Source of the DNA: Anaerolineales bacterium
GTDB lineage: Bacteria > Chloroflexota > Anaerolineae > Anaerolineales > UBA4823
DNA length: 64,000 nucleotides
Assembly (NCBI GenBank): GCA_003105035.1
Contig: PQAL01000003.1
Span: forward strand, 1 to 64,000
Direction of reading: 5' to 3'
Shown here: positions 9,005-47,187 of the stretch, one piece after another
Numbering within the stretch: the stretch's first letter is position 1
How the letters are laid out: each line of letters starts with the position of its first letter
Translations under genes and position numbers: made by a program
The notes under the pieces: model-generated
What the model was told of the DNA's origin: nothing
Databases searched by the model: none
Seen by the model: only the letters and a program-made list of their open reading frames with translations

Positions 9005-9781
9005 TTATATGGGAGTTATCTCCAATTTCTCACTCTCCATGAGTAATCTCATGCGGTCGCCGCGATGACGGGATTTGTAATAATCAATTGGTCGTCCATC
9101 TTCCAGATACACAGTACTTTCAATCATTAACAGCGGGCTGCCAACTTTTACGCTGAGTAGTTGAGCTTCTGCCTCATTCGCCCCAACCGCTTCAACGAAA
9201 CTCTTGGCTCGATAGGTTTTATAACCCGCACTCTCTCGCAGGTATTTATACAAACCGGTATGGGTCAGGTCGGCCTCCAGCAAGCTCGGGCATAATTCGT
9301 ATGGAACATAAGAGTTCACGATCACCACGGGAAGGTTTTGGACATAACGCACCCGCCGGATTTCGATGACGGTCGCGTCGGGGTCAAGCTCGAGTTCACG
9401 AGCCACCACCAGCGTGGGTGTGATGCGGTGCAATTCTAAAACCCGGGTAACCACCTCAAAGCCGCGCTCAACCATATCGTCATAGAAACCAATCGGCCGG
9501 TTGACCAGGCCCTCGATCATCTTAGGCTCAGCGACAAATGTACCACAGCCCTGCTCACGGCGAAGCAAACCGAGAGTCACCAGGGCATCCAGAGATTTTC
9601 GGATGGTAGTCCGGCTGAGTGAGAAGTACTCACATAAATCCTCTTCCACGGGAATCTGCTCGCCGACCTTCCAGTTTCCGGATTCAATTTCCTGCTTTAA
9701 TAATTCAGAGAGCTGGTAGTGGTAGGGAACCGGTGTATCCCGTTTTATTCTAGTGGAATCGAGCGACTCAAGCCGGATCAT
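9005..9781 (-). CDS. GntR-family (HutC/UTRA) transcriptional regulator
   Basis: The 258-residue protein has an N-terminal winged helix-turn-helix (residues about 20-85; YHYQLSELLKQEIESGNW, then LSRTTIRKSLDALVTLGLL) and a C-terminal UTRA ligand-binding domain typical of HutC-subfamily regulators. These bind sugar phosphates or similar metabolites and usually repress catabolic genes. It is the only regulator in the 25-kb unit. It is thus the best candidate for the operators at 25487-25515 and 33383-33411, which are TTGTA/TACAA-rich like many GntR sites. That link is inference. Confidence 0.92.
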   Translation of the reverse strand: MIRLESLDSTRIKRDTPVPYHYQLSELLKQEIESGNWKVGEQIPVEEDLCEYFSLSRTTIRKSLDALVTLGLLRREQGCGTFVAEPKMIEGLVNRPIGFYDDMVERGFEVVTRVLELHRITPTLVVARELELDPDATVIEIRRVRYVQNLPVVIVNSYVPYELCPSLLEADLTHTGLYKYLRESAGYKTYRAKSFVEAVGANEAEAQLLSVKVGSPLLMIESTVYLEDGRPIDYYKSRHRGDRMRLLMESEKLEITPI

Positions 9782-9810
9782 GATGGATTTATCCCCTTTC
9801 TACGGATGAT

Positions 9811-10461
9811 TCATTTCCCGCGTGCACGTTGGACAGCTTCGGCAAAGCGCTGGGCATGCGCTGTCAGGCCTGCCCAGTTTCTTTCCTTGATCAGTTTTGG
9901 ATCAGTTAAACTTGCGCCGACTGCCACGGCAGCCGCACCTGCGGTGATAAAGGCGGGAATATTATCCAGGGAGACACCACCCGTGGGCAAAAGACGCACA
10001 TACGGCAGTGGGCCGAGGATGTCCTTGATATATTGTGGGCCGACGGTGGAAGCCGGGAAAACCTTGACGATGTCGGCGCCACACTCCCACGCCGCTAAAA
10101 TTTCTGTGGGTGTAAAAGCACCCGGCACGATAATCTTGTTATATCGCCGGGCTAACTCGATCAGGGCGGGATTAAAGTTTGGCGCCACCAGGAACTGCGC
10201 CCCAGCCAAAAGCGCTGCTCGGCCGGTCTCCGGATCCAGTACGGTACCCGCACCAAGTAGGATTCGGTCTCCCCACTCTTGAGCAATCGTATGAATGGCG
10301 TCCAGTGCATTGGGGGTTCCCATGGTAAACTCGATCACCCGCACGCCACCTGCCTCGATGGCCTCTGCGATGGGCACCAGCTCAGCTGGCTCCTTTAAGC
10401 GGACAATCGCCACAAGCCCGTGATCCAACAAAAATCGTAGTTGTTCATCTTTGTTCATCAT
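9811..10461 (-). CDS. eda: 2-dehydro-3-deoxyphosphogluconate (KDPG) aldolase, copy 1
   Basis: This 216-residue class I aldolase has VRVIEFTMGTPNALDAI (catalytic Glu), LLGAGTVLDPE and the Schiff-base lysine in DIVKVFPAS, followed by LLPTGGV. It cleaves KDPG-type 2-keto-3-deoxy-6-phospho sugar acids to pyruvate and glyceraldehyde 3-phosphate in the cytoplasm. It overlaps the stop codon of the upstream sugar kinase by one base (TAATG). The pair therefore forms a kinase-aldolase module. Confidence 0.93.
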   Translation of the reverse strand: MMNKDEQLRFLLDHGLVAIVRLKEPAELVPIAEAIEAGGVRVIEFTMGTPNALDAIHTIAQEWGDRILLGAGTVLDPETGRAALLAGAQFLVAPNFNPALIELARRYNKIIVPGAFTPTEILAAWECGADIVKVFPASTVGPQYIKDILGPLPYVRLLPTGGVSLDNIPAFITAGAAAVAVGASLTDPKLIKERNWAGLTAHAQRFAEAVQRARGK

Positions 10462-39582: not shown

Positions 39583-41994
39583 TCAATTTGACCCTTCATT
39601 CTGCTGAATCTCTGCTTTCGTATGTAAGATTACCTCTCCCCGGTAGCCGTCCACCGTAACCAGCATATCGTCTTTGAGTTCCATAGCACCTGGCACGGAT
39701 ACCACCGCCGGGATCTGATATTCGCGTGCCAGGATCGAGCTGTGTGACAGCATTCCTCCTGATTCGGCGATGATTGCTTTTGTCTGGGCGAAAAGCACCG
39801 ACCAACTCACATCTGAGAATGGGATGACCAACACATCACCGGGCTTCACTTTATTGAAATCTTCCAGCCCATGCACTACCCTGGTCGGACCTGTATAATA
39901 TCCCCTCGAAGTGGGAACTCCAGTGAGTTTATCCTCCTCGTTTGTATCCACCAATGGGGGCACATTGCCATAGATCAAAGTCGGTAGGTGCACGTCCTTG
40001 CAGCTGATTAGCTCTGCCTTGCGTATCTTGGCAAGCAAGCCATAATCCTGGTCCAGTTGTTTGGCGGGTGCTGAGTTTCTTTCATCCACTATGTATGAAA
40101 CAATCTCGTCAATCTCCAACCGATCCAGGTAAAAGATATCCTCAGGCTCGGAAAGCAGACCACGCGCCGTGAAATGGTGTCCGAGCGCAAGGAGGTATGG
40201 TCGGAAGGAGCCATAAGCCTGGGTATATAAAGAGCTGATCTGTTCACGGTACAGGCGAAATTTCCTGGCTTTCCTGTACAACAGGTTCGCCCAATGGGAT
40301 GTCAGCCTGGGTAGGTTTAGGTCCTCATAACGCACCTTGGCCTTATGTGCTTCCTGCACTGGCCCCTGGGTGATGAGCTTCAGTACCATGTCCGGTTTCT
40401 CGCGCCATGGGACTGATGAGAAGTCATTGCCGCTATCCGACAAGTAGCCAAATCGTATCATGAAGCTGGAGACTTTTTCCTGAAACTGGGGGATGCCAGG
40501 TAATTGTTGAAATTCTACATAAGAGGATTGTCTAATGTACTGCTGGGTGGCAGGGTCCAGGTTGTGAAAGTCATGCTGTAGATCCCTCAGGGGTATGTCA
40601 GGAGCGTACTCCAGATGGGCTGTCATGCCTGCCATCAGATCAAACTGGGCTGGATCAACTTCCGCTTTCTTAAGGAAGTATGCAAAGGCTGTGTTATAGA
40701 ACCCCATCAGGAGCGGGATATTTATGTTGTAATAAACCAGAGGATACAGATCACGATAGAGCCTGTTGATTTCGACCCACAGTTCACTTTCATTTTGATT
40801 TCGTGTATTCTGCCAGTTGTAATGTTCAGGTAATAATTTCAGACGTGGATAATCAACCTCAAAACGCTTTCCGAGGTGCCATTTCTTCCAGGCGAATAAT
40901 AACAAGCGGGGCAACAGTCGCATCATCCGCCAGGTTGGCTTAAATTTTTGCTGTCTTTCAGAGCGGGGCAGGATACCCATCATGATCTCCAGGCTTTCGC
41001 GTGGCATGCCAAAGACATCCCAAACTCGCCCCAACGCACTTACATTGAAATAGGTTCGATAATAAAAACTCTTTGCCAGGTCATCGAACTTGAGATCATT
41101 TTTCCCTACCAGCTCGGTTAAAAGTTCAACCCACACGGAGTTGATCAGGGGGATATTGATCGACCATATCAGGGGTTTGATCATCCCCGGCAGTACTTCC
41201 TTGGCAATTCGATTCGAGTAGGTTTCCAGGTTCTTCAGTGAAGGTATCTCGCGCATTTGAACCCAGAAGAGCTCGTGCCCATCATAGACCCACTCAAGGT
41301 CTACCGGCGCTTTGAAAGATTCAGCAATCTGGCGCGTTTGCCGGCATACCATCTCGATCAAGCCGGTCCCAATCGGTGAATGTTGTGGGGATGATTTCCA
41401 CAATCCTGACCGGTTCACCCACCGCAGTGGTGTGATCCCGTCCTGAACCAAGGCCGCTCCAGCTCCCTGCACCGCTTCGACTATCACCTCATCCTCGCCA
41501 GTGATGGGATTGCGCGAGAAGGCAACCCCGGAGACAAGCGGGTTGACCATTTCCTGCAAGATGACCGCCATGTGCAGCTCGCGTTGTTGTAATGGAAGTT
41601 TGTCAAGGTAGGCCTGCACACCGGGTGAATTTACACTGGACCATACGGACAAGATCGCCATCAGGATTGCCTGCTCACCCTGAACATCGAGGATGGTTTT
41701 AAACTGGCCGGCAAATGAGCCTTCCAGCGTATCTTCGACGCTGGCAGACGAGCGCACCGCATAAACACCTGCAGGTTCCAGCACCTCCATCAGCTGCTGA
41801 CTTAATAGTTTAAGGATTGAATCATCATCCTGCAAATAACGATCATAGGCTTCCCAGCTGACTGCATACGTTTTAGGCACACGCAATCCCCTTTGCATCA
41901 ACTGGTGGATATTAAATGCTTTATTTCCCACTGATTTGGGTTGGCGTTGGTCATTGATCTGGACCACATAAAGCCCGCGGTGTAACAAGCTCAT
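39583..41994 (-). CDS. PEP-synthase/rifampin-phosphotransferase-like dikinase
   Basis: This 803-residue protein has an N-terminal PPDK-type ATP-grasp domain (about 20-260; VYAVRSSASVEDTLEGSFAGQFKT and SGVAFSRNPITGE). A long helical middle follows, then a C-terminal phosphohistidine domain with GGMLSHSSILAREYQIPAVVSVPGA. It lacks the PEP/pyruvate-binding barrel that PEP synthase carries after the His domain. Domain order and length therefore match rifampin phosphotransferases, which phosphorylate a small molecule bound by the middle domain. The real substrate is unknown. The gene lies 3 bp after a chelatase-like gene. Confidence 0.85.
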   Translation of the reverse strand: MSLLHRGLYVVQINDQRQPKSVGNKAFNIHQLMQRGLRVPKTYAVSWEAYDRYLQDDDSILKLLSQQLMEVLEPAGVYAVRSSASVEDTLEGSFAGQFKTILDVQGEQAILMAILSVWSSVNSPGVQAYLDKLPLQQRELHMAVILQEMVNPLVSGVAFSRNPITGEDEVIVEAVQGAGAALVQDGITPLRWVNRSGLWKSSPQHSPIGTGLIEMVCRQTRQIAESFKAPVDLEWVYDGHELFWVQMREIPSLKNLETYSNRIAKEVLPGMIKPLIWSINIPLINSVWVELLTELVGKNDLKFDDLAKSFYYRTYFNVSALGRVWDVFGMPRESLEIMMGILPRSERQQKFKPTWRMMRLLPRLLLFAWKKWHLGKRFEVDYPRLKLLPEHYNWQNTRNQNESELWVEINRLYRDLYPLVYYNINIPLLMGFYNTAFAYFLKKAEVDPAQFDLMAGMTAHLEYAPDIPLRDLQHDFHNLDPATQQYIRQSSYVEFQQLPGIPQFQEKVSSFMIRFGYLSDSGNDFSSVPWREKPDMVLKLITQGPVQEAHKAKVRYEDLNLPRLTSHWANLLYRKARKFRLYREQISSLYTQAYGSFRPYLLALGHHFTARGLLSEPEDIFYLDRLEIDEIVSYIVDERNSAPAKQLDQDYGLLAKIRKAELISCKDVHLPTLIYGNVPPLVDTNEEDKLTGVPTSRGYYTGPTRVVHGLEDFNKVKPGDVLVIPFSDVSWSVLFAQTKAIIAESGGMLSHSSILAREYQIPAVVSVPGAMELKDDMLVTVDGYRGEVILHTKAEIQQNEGSN

Positions 41995-41997
41995 TAT

Positions 41998-43275
41998 TTA
42001 CAGCGAGATTTCTTTCAATGGATGTATCACTTGTTTTTCGGGTTTAAGGCAGGTTGCATAAGCGGCCTCAATTTTTTCCTTGATCGCCTGGATCACGAGC
42101 GGATCATCATTCCATGCCCCCAGGTTTATCAATGAAAACCCTTTTGGTACCCTCGCTTTATTCACGAGCTCAGGGATGTCATACTGGCTGTGGATCGAAT
42201 CGGCACTGATGGCGGCTGAGAAATATAACACCGTCTCCACCCCATTTGTCACAAATTGCTCAATGACCTTCGCTGGTTTAGGGTTTTTAAATTCCATCCA
42301 TGCCAGGCTTAGATGATCCCGATGGAAACCATCCTTTTCAAACAGGTCCAGGATATATCGGCGGAACTGGAGCTCGTGTTCAGTTTCGCTAGCAAATTCG
42401 CGATCCCATACATCGGGCTGCCCATGTCCAACTAGAAGCACACCCACCTTAGTTTTGTCAGTTCCACCAAGGTGCTGCTGAGCCCGCTCCAGGAACATGC
42501 GGTGCAGGGTGGATGAATCCCACATCGGACCTGTGTAATAAATGGGAATTTCGTAATCTTCAAGCCTTATCGCCTCGATCAGGTTCTTGCCTTCCAGGGT
42601 ATGGTTGGATACTGAGACAAAAACCTCTGCCACGATCAACTGGCTTGCCCCCTCATTCAAAGCTTGAATGATAGCGGCATCCGGGCGGGGATCATCATCC
42701 AAAAAGCTTATATAGAATCGGGTGGTTTCATCACCCTGAAGGCGAAATTCACGCTCCAGGCTGCTCATCATCCGCTGATGAACCTTTCGGTGGTTGCTGG
42801 AGCCTACCTGGAGGTATTTTTTCCGCAATTGATATACAAAGAAAGGCCTGGCAAGAAATGGGACAAAGGAGATCCGTTGCTCATCAAACTCGCGGAACTG
42901 GTTGAGCCATCCGATCGGATCGTATGTCTCAGGTTCGCCATGGGTGAAATAGATGACCGCAACATGACCGTCGCCGGGGTCTCCCTTTTGACGTGTTAGG
43001 AGAGGTATATGCCGATGGTCTTCTCGCGACAGGAATATTCTAGTTAGGATTGCATAACCACCCAGGAAAAAAAACATCCAAGCCAGCACTGCCAAACCAA
43101 CTCGAACACGGATCATTGGTTGAGAAAAGATGACCAGGCTGCCTAAAAAGCATGCCCAGGTCAGGCTTAAGTACAGGCTCATACGTAATGGGTGCGTGGT
43201 GAGGAATTTAAGAAAAAACACACCAGTTAAAAAAGCTAACATGCAACAAAGTCCCCAGAGCATGGTCTTCTCCAT
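41998..43275 (-). CDS. membrane-anchored class II chelatase-like protein (ferrochelatase/CbiX fold)
   Basis: The 425-residue protein has about three N-terminal hydrophobic helices (residues 5-85) followed by two chelatase-like halves. The first half has VAVIYFTHGEPETYDP. The second has VGVLLVGHGQPDVWD and VLYFSAAISADSIHSQYDIPEL, which resemble the two His-bearing metal sites of CbiX/ferrochelatase. Class II chelatases insert metal into tetrapyrroles, but no tetrapyrrole gene is nearby and the membrane anchor is atypical. I give a fold-level call only. Confidence 0.65.
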   Translation of the reverse strand: MEKTMLWGLCCMLAFLTGVFFLKFLTTHPLRMSLYLSLTWACFLGSLVIFSQPMIRVRVGLAVLAWMFFFLGGYAILTRIFLSREDHRHIPLLTRQKGDPGDGHVAVIYFTHGEPETYDPIGWLNQFREFDEQRISFVPFLARPFFVYQLRKKYLQVGSSNHRKVHQRMMSSLEREFRLQGDETTRFYISFLDDDPRPDAAIIQALNEGASQLIVAEVFVSVSNHTLEGKNLIEAIRLEDYEIPIYYTGPMWDSSTLHRMFLERAQQHLGGTDKTKVGVLLVGHGQPDVWDREFASETEHELQFRRYILDLFEKDGFHRDHLSLAWMEFKNPKPAKVIEQFVTNGVETVLYFSAAISADSIHSQYDIPELVNKARVPKGFSLINLGAWNDDPLVIQAIKEKIEAAYATCLKPEKQVIHPLKEISL

Positions 43276-43779: not shown

Positions 43780-44057
43780 GGTACCCTCCCTTTCCGAAGA
43801 ATTGGTTGACTGCTGTTGACTAAAAAAGGCGGCAAGGACACTGGAATTATTTATTTTTGACCTATTTTTCGATTTTTAAAAAAGTGATAAAAGTGGGGGA
43901 TGTAAAGGGAAAAACCGCCGTTTGGCAGCTCTAGGTGGAAAAAAACATGCGTTTTTAGGGTATTTATAACCCCTTCTACCCATTTTTAGTGAGCGTGCTT
44001 GCACCGAGCGTCCACCTGCACGATCTTGGTGCGGTAGTGAGCGTAGAGCGGCTCGAA

Positions 44058-44205
44058 GAGTCTCCCCCTTGCGAGGACGCTCAACCAAACATAAGTCTAT
44101 TAAACAAAAAGTGCGCGTGGAGCGGCTCGAAGAGTCTCCCCCTTGCGAGGACGCTCAACCAAACATAAGTCTAATAAACAAAAAGTGAGCGTGGAGACGC
44201 TCAAA
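44058..44205. repeat. 74-bp tandem repeat, two units plus a third partial
   Basis: Units start at 44058 and 44132 with GAGTCTCCCCCTTGCGAGG and differ at only a few bases. A third start at 44206 runs into dispersed repeat copy B. Part of the unit (GTGAGCGTAGAGCGGCTC) also precedes the first full unit at about 44036. Confidence 0.8.
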
Positions 44206-44357
44206 GAGTCTCCCCCTTGCGGGGACGCTCAACCAATGGCTTAAAAGGACGATCCTAAAAAGCAGCATCTCCCAACCAATGTCCTGCCATTTATGGCTCA
44301 GTCCATTGGACACGGACTAAGCGAGTACATTGGTTATGTTATTAAAGTCCAGTCAAC
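44202..44357. repeat. dispersed 156-bp repeat, copy B
   Basis: Counterpart of 33775-33930. It contains the palindrome GTCCATTGGAC and opposed ACCAATG/CATTGGT motifs, so the transcript or single strand could fold. Its first 31 bases are shared with the adjoining tandem units. Confidence 0.75.
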
Positions 44358-44556: not shown

Positions 44557-44829
44557 TTAGTAATTTGGCTCACAGCCTTGATCTACTTCACCGAAATCTT
44601 CTTCAGAATTATATTGATCATGATTTAGAGTATGGCTTTTTTCTTCCTCTTCACAGGGAGAACAGGTGCAATCCGGCGCGCATTCAGGTCCTCCATCGGT
44701 ACAAGGTTCGCACAGAGGCCGGCATTCTTCTGAAGGTTCACATAAGGTGTCAGGATTCTTCATCGAAGTGACCAATGAAATTGTCGCACCCGTTTTTGAT
44801 ATGGGTGTCTTATTTTTTTTATCCTTCAT
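44557..44829 (-). CDS. cysteine-rich peptide, candidate RiPP precursor
   Basis: This 90-residue peptide has a basic leader-like start (MKDKKNKTPISKTG) and a core with cysteines at 30, 36, 40, 43, 50, 54, 56 and 59, spaced by Glu, Pro and Asp. An acidic Asn/Glu tail with a ninth Cys at 86 follows. It overlaps the end of the radical SAM/SPASM gene by 11 bp, and its ribosome-binding site (AGGAGAG) lies inside that gene. Small Cys-rich peptides beside SPASM enzymes are typically thioether-bridged RiPP precursors (sactipeptides, ranthipeptides). The role is inferred, and the family is not one I recognise. Confidence 0.72.
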   Translation of the reverse strand: MKDKKNKTPISKTGATISLVTSMKNPDTLCEPSEECRPLCEPCTDGGPECAPDCTCSPCEEEEKSHTLNHDQYNSEEDFGEVDQGCEPNY

Positions 44830-46222
44830 AATTCATCTCTCCTATCATCATATTTGACGATCTCTCTATTGACTGCCTGACTTGTCGGATTTCTAGAGCC
44901 ATGCTTTTATCATAATATGGTTTGCCGTCCCTATCAACTATCCATATCCCATTGCCCCACTCTCCAGAATATGGGTTATAAGTGCAGCGTGGGTAAGGCG
45001 CAGAGCGAAAATCTACCCGGCCTTGCGCGGCTGCTTCAGCCAGAGGTCTGCAATCAAAGCATACATAGCGGTATTCGCAATCCTGGCAGACAGCCACATG
45101 GTCTTTAGTGGTATGCCATATACCCTGGAGTTCTGAACAGCAAATAACCTCACAGAGGTTGTTTTGAGCCAGGTAGTTCCCAAGGATATGTTCCCGGGCA
45201 AATATGCATGGCAGGATATCACCAAATTCTGTAATCACCAATTTACCATTTAGGCAAGAATGGCGCGATTTATAATGGGCAATCTTCTTTCTACTAGCTT
45301 TAAAAAGGGGGGTCAGCATGAATCCGTACTGGATTAGAGTCTTATCGACGGGTTGAATCAGGCTTTTTTCGCCCCGACCATTTGGTCGAACTAGATCGGG
45401 TTTTCTCCCATGCAAACCCATTTTCCGTATGAATGACTTTGTAGATTCAACAGATTCTTGATTGGCTTTCATAACTACAGTCTCCACCCTTGTTTCAACA
45501 CCAAATTTCTTCAACAACGCCAGGGAGCTAACTGTTTTTGCATAGCTGCCGGGAGTTTGGGTGACACTATTGTGAATAATTGGATCATCTGAATAAAGTG
45601 ATACTGCCACCTTGATCCCCATCTCTTTTATCTTGAGTATGTTATCGGGAGTGAGCAGGGTCGCATTGGTAAAGATTTCAACAGATGAATATCCAACCTT
45701 TTTTGCAAATCCGGCCAACTCAATAACTGTTTCACCTTTTTCACCCCGATATAAAAGCGGCTCACCACCAATAAATTGACAAGCCTTACACCCAAGTTCT
45801 CGTGCTTGCTTGATCACTCTCAGCCAGTCTTTATACAACATCCGAGACTTCGGTTGAGCGATCGAAGGGGAAAAGTCTTTCGTCAACAAATCGCCCCGGC
45901 TGTTTTGAGGCATGGAATTGGTATAACAGTGAATGCATCGCTGATTACACTCATTTGTCGCGATTTCAAACCACATGAACTTTAGATGGTCATTTTCCAT
46001 TGACCTGGGTAATTCCTGCGGGCAAGCACGTTCAATCTCACCAGCAATACCCATAGAGACAAGTGCGTGCCAATATTGATCATCTTCCACTTTGTATGCA
46101 CATACTTTACAGCCTTGACTATTTATAGAGTAAACAAGGCCTGAGTTGGTATCCATGATGGCGCCTCGCAAGGCGCCCTTAATGAGATACACACCATCTT
46201 TTAAGCTATATTTTGGTGCCAT
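44819..46222 (-). CDS. radical SAM/SPASM peptide-modifying enzyme with PqqD-like N-terminal domain
   Basis: The 467-residue protein has the radical SAM motif CNQRCIHC (C92, C96, C99; CX3CX2C) and a SPASM domain with C323, C339, C379, C382, C388, C391 and C413 for auxiliary [4Fe-4S] clusters. Residues 5-65 (LKDGVYLIKGALRGAIMDTNSGLVYSIN...) resemble PqqD-type peptide-binding domains that grip the precursor leader. Such enzymes make thioether or C-C crosslinks in RiPPs. The next gene is a cysteine-rich peptide, a likely substrate. The product structure is unknown. Confidence 0.88.
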   Translation of the reverse strand: MAPKYSLKDGVYLIKGALRGAIMDTNSGLVYSINSQGCKVCAYKVEDDQYWHALVSMGIAGEIERACPQELPRSMENDHLKFMWFEIATNECNQRCIHCYTNSMPQNSRGDLLTKDFSPSIAQPKSRMLYKDWLRVIKQARELGCKACQFIGGEPLLYRGEKGETVIELAGFAKKVGYSSVEIFTNATLLTPDNILKIKEMGIKVAVSLYSDDPIIHNSVTQTPGSYAKTVSSLALLKKFGVETRVETVVMKANQESVESTKSFIRKMGLHGRKPDLVRPNGRGEKSLIQPVDKTLIQYGFMLTPLFKASRKKIAHYKSRHSCLNGKLVITEFGDILPCIFAREHILGNYLAQNNLCEVICCSELQGIWHTTKDHVAVCQDCEYRYVCFDCRPLAEAAAQGRVDFRSAPYPRCTYNPYSGEWGNGIWIVDRDGKPYYDKSMALEIRQVRQSIERSSNMMIGEMNYEG

Positions 46223-46263: not shown

Positions 46264-47187
46264 TTACCCTTTTTTGAAATGACCATCTAAGAAATCAAGT
46301 ACCTTTTTTACATTCTCTGGAGTCTCAAACATCGGATCAGCATGCTCGGCTCCTTGTAGCAATTCTAACATCACCTTATCTCTGCCGAGAACACTAGCTA
46401 ATTTCGAGGCAAAATTGATCGATTGTTGAACCGGAACAACTGCATCCATCGTCCCGTGCTGCAAGAAAAACGGGGGTGCACCTTTTCGGATATATGTTTC
46501 AGGGTTGGCTGCTTTGACGAGCTCAGGGACTTCGATAATCGTGTGCCCCAGTAACAGTGATTCGGGTGAATTCGGCCCGCAGTGCAACTGGTCATCCGGC
46601 GGTTTTAGCCCATTTTCTTCCAGTTGAGCATCCATCTTCATAAAATCATTCGGCCCGTACCAAGAAATAACTGCTTGAACATTGCATTGTTGCTCCGGAT
46701 TCCCTAATTCTTTATCCTCAAGCTCTGCTATACCCTCAGAGACCCCCAGCATGGAGGCAAGGTATCCTCCCGCTGAGCCTCCCCAGGCGGCGACTCGCTG
46801 CGCGTCAATACCGATCCGGTCGGCGTTAGCTCTGATCCAGCGTACAGCAGCTTTCACATCCTGAACTAGGGCAGGAAATTTTGCTTGCCAACTCAGCCGG
46901 TAATTCGTAGCAACAACAGCATATCCTCTCTTAAGCCCTTCCAGCATCGGCACCACCTGCATATCTGCCTTATCGCAGCCCATGAACGCGCCTCCATGGA
47001 GCTGCAGGATCACCGGGTATGGAGCTGGAAAACCGTCTGGAAGATAGATATCCAGCTTTTGTGAGGGTGAGATTGACGCATATGGTATATCGAGCATCTT
47101 GTGTTTAATATGATCGGTATTTGCCTTCGGAGGTGTCTGCTGGATGCCATAATGGGGCGGAGGCGTAAGGGAAATGGTGTCTGTCAT
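46264..47187 (-). CDS. alpha/beta hydrolase (esterase/acetylesterase-like)
   Basis: This 307-residue hydrolase has the oxyanion-hole motif LQLHGGAFMG, the nucleophile elbow AAWGGSAGGYLAS (Ser in GxSxG) and a C-terminal GAEHADPMF with the catalytic His. No signal peptide is seen. It resembles BD-FAE-type feruloyl/acetyl esterases. It is the first gene before the radical SAM and peptide genes, in the same direction with a 41-bp gap. It might act on the same pathway or be a chance neighbour. A secreted paralogue is at 50702. Confidence 0.88.
   Translation of the reverse strand: MTDTISLTPPPHYGIQQTPPKANTDHIKHKMLDIPYASISPSQKLDIYLPDGFPAPYPVILQLHGGAFMGCDKADMQVVPMLEGLKRGYAVVATNYRLSWQAKFPALVQDVKAAVRWIRANADRIGIDAQRVAAWGGSAGGYLASMLGVSEGIAELEDKELGNPEQQCNVQAVISWYGPNDFMKMDAQLEENGLKPPDDQLHCGPNSPESLLLGHTIIEVPELVKAANPETYIRKGAPPFFLQHGTMDAVVPVQQSINFASKLASVLGRDKVMLELLQGAEHADPMFETPENVKKVLDFLDGHFKKG

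Follow-up and report, generated by a model that had tools for sequence, protein, structure and literature searches.

A family of radical SAM/SPASM enzymes with Cys-Xaa-Pro partner peptides: a candidate peptide maturation system of bacteria and archaea

In the sactipeptide systems (SkfB, AlbA, CteB, StsB) an enzyme with an RRE-like N-terminus, a radical SAM core and a SPASM/Twitch C-terminus adjoins a Cys-bearing precursor. CteB binds the substrate cysteine at an open site of auxiliary cluster I (Aux I), and the same was proposed for AlbA in a study which also cautions against predicting function from SPASM sequence clusters (PMC6231123). In anSMEcpe the Aux I ligands include an extra cysteine, Cys261 (PMC5715301). 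A gene pair of similar layout was found in a stretch of 64,000 nucleotides (the window) from contig PQAL01000003.1 of an Anaerolineales bacterium, and its features are listed in Table 1. The comparisons given below suggest that a RiPP-type maturation system is probably built around this pair, with Cys-Xaa-Pro (C-x-P) as its unit and cysteine thioether formation as its most likely chemistry.

The gene pair and its peptide

The enzyme and peptide genes share 11 bp (44819-44829) on the minus strand, and the coordinates confirmed the initial annotation, which had described a 90-residue peptide overlapping a radical SAM/SPASM gene by this length. The eight closely spaced cysteines that it reported were also found, at residues 30-59, with the ninth Cys outside that stretch. 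Proline occurs at exactly the +2 position of six of the nine cysteines, compared with 0.90 expected in shuffled sequences (p<=0.00005; six or more were never reached in about 20,000 trials), and this composition is not due to chance. A six-frame scan of the window gave 1572 stop-to-stop frames of at least 25 aa, two of which passed a CxP filter of at least three C-x-P units with at least 60% of Cys in C-x-P. These were the peptide itself and a frame at 9704-10282, a weak case with three of its four cysteines in the motif. The ISLVT-type leader motif recurs in six bacterial peptides that have no signal sequence, with a chance of 0.003-0.033 per shuffled leader for a motif that was chosen after the fact.

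The BD-FAE type hydrolase upstream of the enzyme is a possible operon partner of the pair, but no such gene was present beside the relatives of the enzyme in the neighbourhoods inspected. Downstream of the peptide gene, positions 44036-44257 contain a 74-nt direct repeat in three tandem copies, the two others matching the first at 96% and 68% identity. A 425-aa protein with a hydrophobic N-terminus and weak matches to ferrochelatase and CbiX is encoded at 41998-43275, adjoining a PEP-synthase-like gene at 39583-41994.

Table 1. Positions of the features discussed. Coordinates refer to the window unless a locus is named.
Feature	Coordinates	Strand	Basis or remark
BD-FAE type alpha/beta hydrolase	46264..47187	-	PF20434 1.7e-63; 41 bp upstream of the enzyme, same strand
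Radical SAM/SPASM enzyme (putative peptide maturase), 467 aa	44819..46222	-	Pfam Radical_SAM 1e-17
RRE/PqqD-like N-terminal domain (predicted), residues 1-65	46028..46222	-	AlphaFold2 model; PF05402 in relatives; CteB profile match
CX3CX2C radical SAM cluster motif (C92, C96, C99)	45926..45949	-	Cys in 14/14 family sequences covering the motif
SPASM domain, residues 318-422, seven Cys, ends YNPYSGEW	44957..45271	-	nearest named SPASM model TIGR04193, 77 bits vs cut-off 175
Shine-Dalgarno-like AGGAGAG	44837..44843	-	read from sequence; within the end of the enzyme gene, 7 nt 5' of the peptide ATG
Putative precursor of 90 aa (C-x-P at six of nine Cys)	44557..44829	-	
Leader motif ISLVT, residues 17-21	44767..44781	-	cf. 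IFCVT, IFCTT, IFSVT, IFDVT, LILVT, IICVS in relatives
Core CEPSEECRPLCEPCTDGGPECAPDCTCSPC, residues 30-59	44653..44742	-	
C-terminal CEPNY, residues 86-90	44560..44574	-	fused actinobacterial tails end alike, in position and form
Tat/C-x-P/peptidoglycan-binding proteins, Deltaproteobacteria type	L017:7272-7790; L027:7271-7837; L123:1583-2167; L124:801-1388		

The enzyme family and the C-x-P rule

No match was obtained when the window enzyme served as single query against genome and viral collections; finding the family required an alignment with GwsS. A scan of 84,980 species genomes with a profile built from the window enzyme and two Elizabethkingia GwsS proteins returned eleven full-length relatives, from Deltaproteobacteria (L017, L027), Clostridia (L018, L019, L021, L025), Bathyarchaeota (L020, L022), Aminicenantes (L026), Planctomycetes (L023) and Acetothermia (L024). 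Searches of the groups around these added four more (L123, L124, L125, L126), giving 15 relatives with 28-40% identity to the window enzyme and a family of 16. All 16 score 290 bits or more to the A2 profile. A profile made from the first eleven relatives separates sharply, members scoring 297-614 bits, against 165 or less for the remaining radical SAM proteins in their genomes. The Planctomycetes enzyme (L023:7239-8102) and one of the added members (L126:6646-8310) carry an extra C-terminal PqqD-like domain, and the former is followed by a gene for an HprK-related kinase A (TIGR04352, 113/200 bits).

The family is rare, occurring in about 1-2% of the genomes sampled in the groups around its members. 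Apart from the window's own enzyme, no member was found in 60 genomes of the same family and order, nor in 396 genomes of the class, and a TIGR04193 search of the phylum gave no match besides the window. The lack of relatives in near genomes, together with a GC content of 0.44 for the gene (0.43-0.44 for the locus) compared with 0.51 for the window, suggests horizontal acquisition. A tblastn search of plasmids with the peptide gave matches at E>=2 only. No Pfam or NCBIfam 20.0 model and no paper in the open-access literature searched describes a C-x-P radical SAM family, which is apparently undescribed. Two proteins from near genomes (L007, L008; 27-28% identity) were rejected as members, as they belong to a different radical SAM system. 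In these genomes, which are of the window genome's family, the radical SAM gene is followed by a conserved peptide of 64-71 aa ending PAIVYLAPLEA...VC(D/E)PLGGGK (L007:1109-1324, L008:1120-1314), a candidate for a separate RiPP pair.

A clear C-x-P peptide lies immediately upstream or downstream of 13 of the 16 enzymes, window included, while two have weak candidates and one has none. The initial annotation had proposed a search for homologues of the peptide beside the same enzyme family. Peptides of the same pattern were found there in several phyla, so that the pairing survives the refuting condition set in that annotation, and the short putative precursor gene beside a modifying enzyme, conserved as a pair across genomes, is a feature of RiPP systems. 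In these 13 peptides proline occupies the +2 position of 145 of 158 cysteines. The middle residue is variable (Ser 43, Asn 20, Ala 17, Tyr 11, Arg 8, Thr 8, Gly 7, Pro 5 and others).

The surroundings of the unit differ between groups. The Clostridial cores are repeats of CYPDCNPCSPCSPCRPSEW behind leaders with IFxVT, and in the L019 peptide 10 of 11 cysteines are in C-x-P. The Deltaproteobacterial precursor has a twin-arginine signal (SRRxFI) and up to nineteen C-x-P units followed by a PG_binding_1 domain (1e-13), and would thus attach a putatively modified peptide domain to the cell wall. The Bathyarchaeal units are spread out and include all 13 cysteines of the L020 peptide, while a secreted peptide in G1606 (L126) ends CNPENKSCNPTGGPCGPNT. 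The weak candidates end SDSCRPGDCRPN, preceded by IICVS (L025), and CGPVLCPP (L023). No CxP peptide was found on the 6.9-kb contig of the Acetothermia enzyme, which has lost the third cysteine of CX3CX2C. The order of enzyme first and precursor last, which had been thought uncommon, proved not to be peculiar to the window: the precursor lies 3' of the enzyme in Deltaproteobacteria and Clostridia but 5' in Bathyarchaeota, Aminicenantes and G1606, and actinobacteria have it joined to the enzyme.

In Clostridia the C-x-P peptide is followed by two small genes, GNAT-like where tested. Just past these lie convergent, homologous-looking genes (L018:3256-4230, L019:8676-9590, L021:8657-9592) which encode 12-14 cysteines and have no NCBIfam match; the L018 copy, the only one scanned against Pfam, had no match there.

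None of 16,501 frames passed the C-x-P filter in 815 kb from 69 other loci, mostly grasp-with-spasm loci of Bacteroidota. As this set is AT-rich, a fairer control is given by 15 further radical SAM hits, of which several come from the same genomes and four are SPASM genes of the window's genome, and no C-x-P frame was found beside these. The shuffles and control loci exclude chance as the source of the C-x-P pattern. Cys-rich proteins often bind metals and the Deltaproteobacterial form bears a peptidoglycan-binding domain, so that these could be unmodified metal-binding or structural proteins with the enzyme as a chance or unrelated neighbour; however the association is repeated in several phyla, fused forms exist in another clade, and CxP peptides are absent beside the other radical SAM genes of the controls, which leaves this explanation very improbable. 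Since the relatives of the enzyme in several phyla adjoin peptides with the same C-x-P pattern, the SPASM enzyme very probably has the window peptide as its substrate. We regard the family as a real one, rare, common to bacteria and archaea, and with what appears from the sequences to be a clear substrate rule.

The acidic residues beside cysteine, which the initial annotation had read as a clue to ranthipeptides, are a local feature of the window peptide, the shared element being C-x-P. A PapB-like enzyme would link Cys to Asp or Glu at the beta or gamma carbon, and both the many Glu and Asp residues near Cys in the window peptide and the tolerance of PapB to spacing (PMC9413430) would suit such a reaction. 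However, Asp or Glu occurs at +4 (CX3[D/E]) of just 19 of the 158 cysteines in the 13 peptides, the Deltaproteobacterial and Bathyarchaeal cores contain almost no acidic residues, and the L017-type core has neither Asp nor Glu, so that ranthipeptide chemistry is unlikely.

The cysteines of the enzyme and the probable chemistry

Pfam detected the radical SAM core alone in the window enzyme. An AlphaFold2 model (mean pLDDT 79) predicted an RRE-like domain, a barrel and a SPASM domain in succession, the first 65 residues forming four short strands, two helices and a further strand with a pLDDT of about 70-90. This predicted fold agrees with the PqqD-like N-terminus of the initial annotation; PF05402 (PqqD) matches 3/15 family sequences and not the window protein. 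The CteB profile match to the enzyme starts at profile position 24. The best solved relatives were SkfB (4.5e-33), anSME (1.4e-18) and CteB (2.3e-18) by profile, and SkfB, SuiB, MoaA, TigE, CteB and anSME by fold. The TM-scores to solved enzymes were only about 0.45-0.6, and the active-site argument is therefore not rested on the model. The closest NCBIfam models scored far under their cut-offs, with 77.2/175 bits for TIGR04193 (SPASM half only), 66.7/625 for StsB and 53/850 for AlbA; the sulfatase maturase and HxsC models gave 34/349 and 50.8/267.9 bits.

An alignment of 15 family sequences shows exactly seven SPASM cysteines (C323, C339, C379, C382, C388, C391, C413), which do not vary wherever these positions can be read. 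Exactly three of these (C323, C339, C391) belong to Aux I; the alignment contains no counterpart of anSMEcpe Cys261 and no extra conserved cysteine between C323 and C339. With three Aux I cysteines and no match to Cys261, the Aux I iron site of the family enzymes is predicted to be open. Opposite anSMEcpe Asp277, the residue that follows the Aux I Cys, the HMMER alignment places Ile, Val or Asn (PCI/V/N-F) in the family. We take Asp277 to be the catalytic base for formylglycine formation.

These residues bear on a second possible chemistry, in which the C-x-P cysteines would be oxidised to formylglycine or thioaldehyde as by anSME (C/S-x-P-x-R), giving a peptide with many aldehydes. The sulfatase motif also starts C-x-P, anSME ranks second by profile among the solved relatives and high by fold, and the Deltaproteobacterial units CTPS and CSPT resemble sulfatase sites. 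We nevertheless give this chemistry little credence, since Arg occupies the +4 position in only 4 of 145 units, the additional Aux I ligand (PMC5715301) is missing, and Asp277 has no equivalent in the family. The open Aux I site and the lack of a match to Asp277 favour thioether formation over formylglycine.

Radical chemistry might also leave the cysteine sulfur out, for instance by epimerisation, C-C bond formation or oxidation at the proline or middle residue, with Cys acting as recognition element or metal ligand. This would be consistent with a unit in which only C and P are constant, and the fold library also returned the non-thioether maturases SuiB and TigE. It is still a doubtful explanation, as a seven-Cys SPASM domain with an open Aux I fits thiolate binding and the strict retention of cysteine would otherwise be hard to explain.

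In the favoured thioether mechanism the RRE-like domain would bind the leader of the peptide at its I-x-x-V-T region, after which the enzyme would cleave S-adenosylmethionine reductively and act on the cysteines of the Cys-Xaa-Pro units. The most likely product would be a set of intramolecular thioethers, each joining the sulfur of a C-x-P cysteine to a carbon of a nearby residue, and the thiolate would be held on the open iron site of Aux I during the reaction. As only Cys and Pro are constant and the middle residue can be any, including Gly and Pro, the attack is expected to fall on an alpha carbon of the backbone or on a proline carbon and not on an acidic side chain. The modified stretch of the Deltaproteobacterial proteins would leave the cell by Tat and be retained on the peptidoglycan, a form which points to a role different from antibiosis. 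Support for the RiPP and thioether reading comes from the RRE-like fold, from SkfB as the best solved relative and from the predicted open Aux I site. Against it, the scores to SkfB, anSME and CteB are far below family thresholds and three of the nine window-peptide cysteines lie outside C-x-P; in addition, repeats such as CSPCSPC have only x and P between cysteines, which would require very small rings or a longer-range pairing that is invisible in the sequence.

Fused forms and relation to described systems

In a tree of the family and outgroup enzymes, a clade with 100/98 support also took in L127, L128 and plasmid proteins of Streptomyces, Rhizobium sullae and Paraburkholderia. Eighteen radical SAM proteins of a related clade (L009-L013, L128, L130-L141), from plasmids of Streptomyces, Embleya, Amycolatopsis, Rhizobium and Paraburkholderia and from G1559, have lost the Aux II half of SPASM and carry a C-terminal C-x-P tail instead, and RefSeq annotates them as single genes. 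One of them, L131, is from Streptomyces anthocyanicus. Across these proteins 81 of 87 tail cysteines are in C-x-P, including all eight in the L012 tail, DSCHPSCAPDPCQPTCAPRCSPSCSPCAPFRRCWPTYR. Several tails end in CxPxY (CQPNYD, CEPSYD, CNPKYN, CDPAY), and the matching end of the window peptide accounts for its isolated ninth cysteine. The Streptomyces fused genes usually precede a gene for a PIMT-like methyltransferase (265/380 bits to TIGR04188). L127 has at most one weak CxP peptide candidate.

The tails are read as substrates joined to their enzyme. Alternatively some of their cysteines might ligate a cluster, but the number (3-8) and spacing of the cysteines vary. The fused proteins are possibly self-modifying and, as we know of no earlier self-modifying radical SAM peptide, would then be the first. 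Since the fused clade is without Aux II, the same chemistry need not apply to all of these enzymes.

The constancy of the C-x-P unit in changing surroundings, in bacteria, archaea and fused forms, provides a testable prediction of the site of radical SAM action, and a link to the proline or middle residue would give a cross-link of new geometry whose recognition rule is compact and portable. We tentatively propose, as a reading that may or may not hold, a new class of ribosomal peptide modification with Cys-Xaa-Pro as its unit, possibly a thioether to the proline or middle residue, in bacteria and archaea. It would occur in three layouts, as a separate precursor, as a Tat-exported peptidoglycan-bound domain, and as a radical SAM enzyme that modifies its own fused core.

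The fused clade, with its putative core joined to the modifying enzyme, follows the same logic as the borosins, in which a methyltransferase is fused to its core peptide (PMC8429565); the borosin enzyme is an N-methyltransferase, whereas here a radical SAM enzyme would modify itself, and the window proteins are not fused. By sequence the closest SPASM half is that of the grasp-with-spasm protein GwsS (C.DCE.RY.C.DCR...C.YNPY, 41.6% over 89 aa). The GwsS examined has no CX3CX2C, and its partners are an ATP-grasp ligase and a precursor of the non-Cys type. Membership of this group was rejected on the TIGR04193 score and the absence of an ATP-grasp gene among the genes examined at 39.5-50.6 kb of the window. 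The anaerobic sulfatase maturases share the SPASM family and a substrate motif starting C-x-P, but differ in the conserved Arg at +4, in Asp277, in a fully ligated Aux I with Cys261 and in having a sulfatase as substrate, and the enzyme was not placed among them. Ranthipeptides (PapA/PapB, freyrasin) also combine repeated Cys units in the precursor with a SPASM enzyme; assignment to them was rejected, as the regular CX3 Asp/Glu acceptor spacing of PapA is not conserved here. Repeat peptides adjoining radical SAM enzymes are likewise found in the His-Xaa-Ser (HxsA/HxsB/HxsC) and ACGX systems, which have another repeat unit and, for HxsC, a model that the window enzyme matches far below its cut-off. 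HxsA has a C-terminal peptidoglycan-binding domain of the same kind as the L017 precursor, whose domain is matched by the HxsA model.

The sactipeptide systems are the nearest in overall design, and the window enzyme has both the CX3CX2C motif and the SPASM/Twitch cysteines of their maturases. They differ in the C-x-P unit, which is shared by the precursors here and which to our knowledge has not been described for sactipeptides. The system is not filed as a sactipeptide system, because the enzyme falls below the curated sactisynthase cut-offs and the defining thioether is a predicted one, yet by analogy it would work like one, with C-x-P as its own unit.
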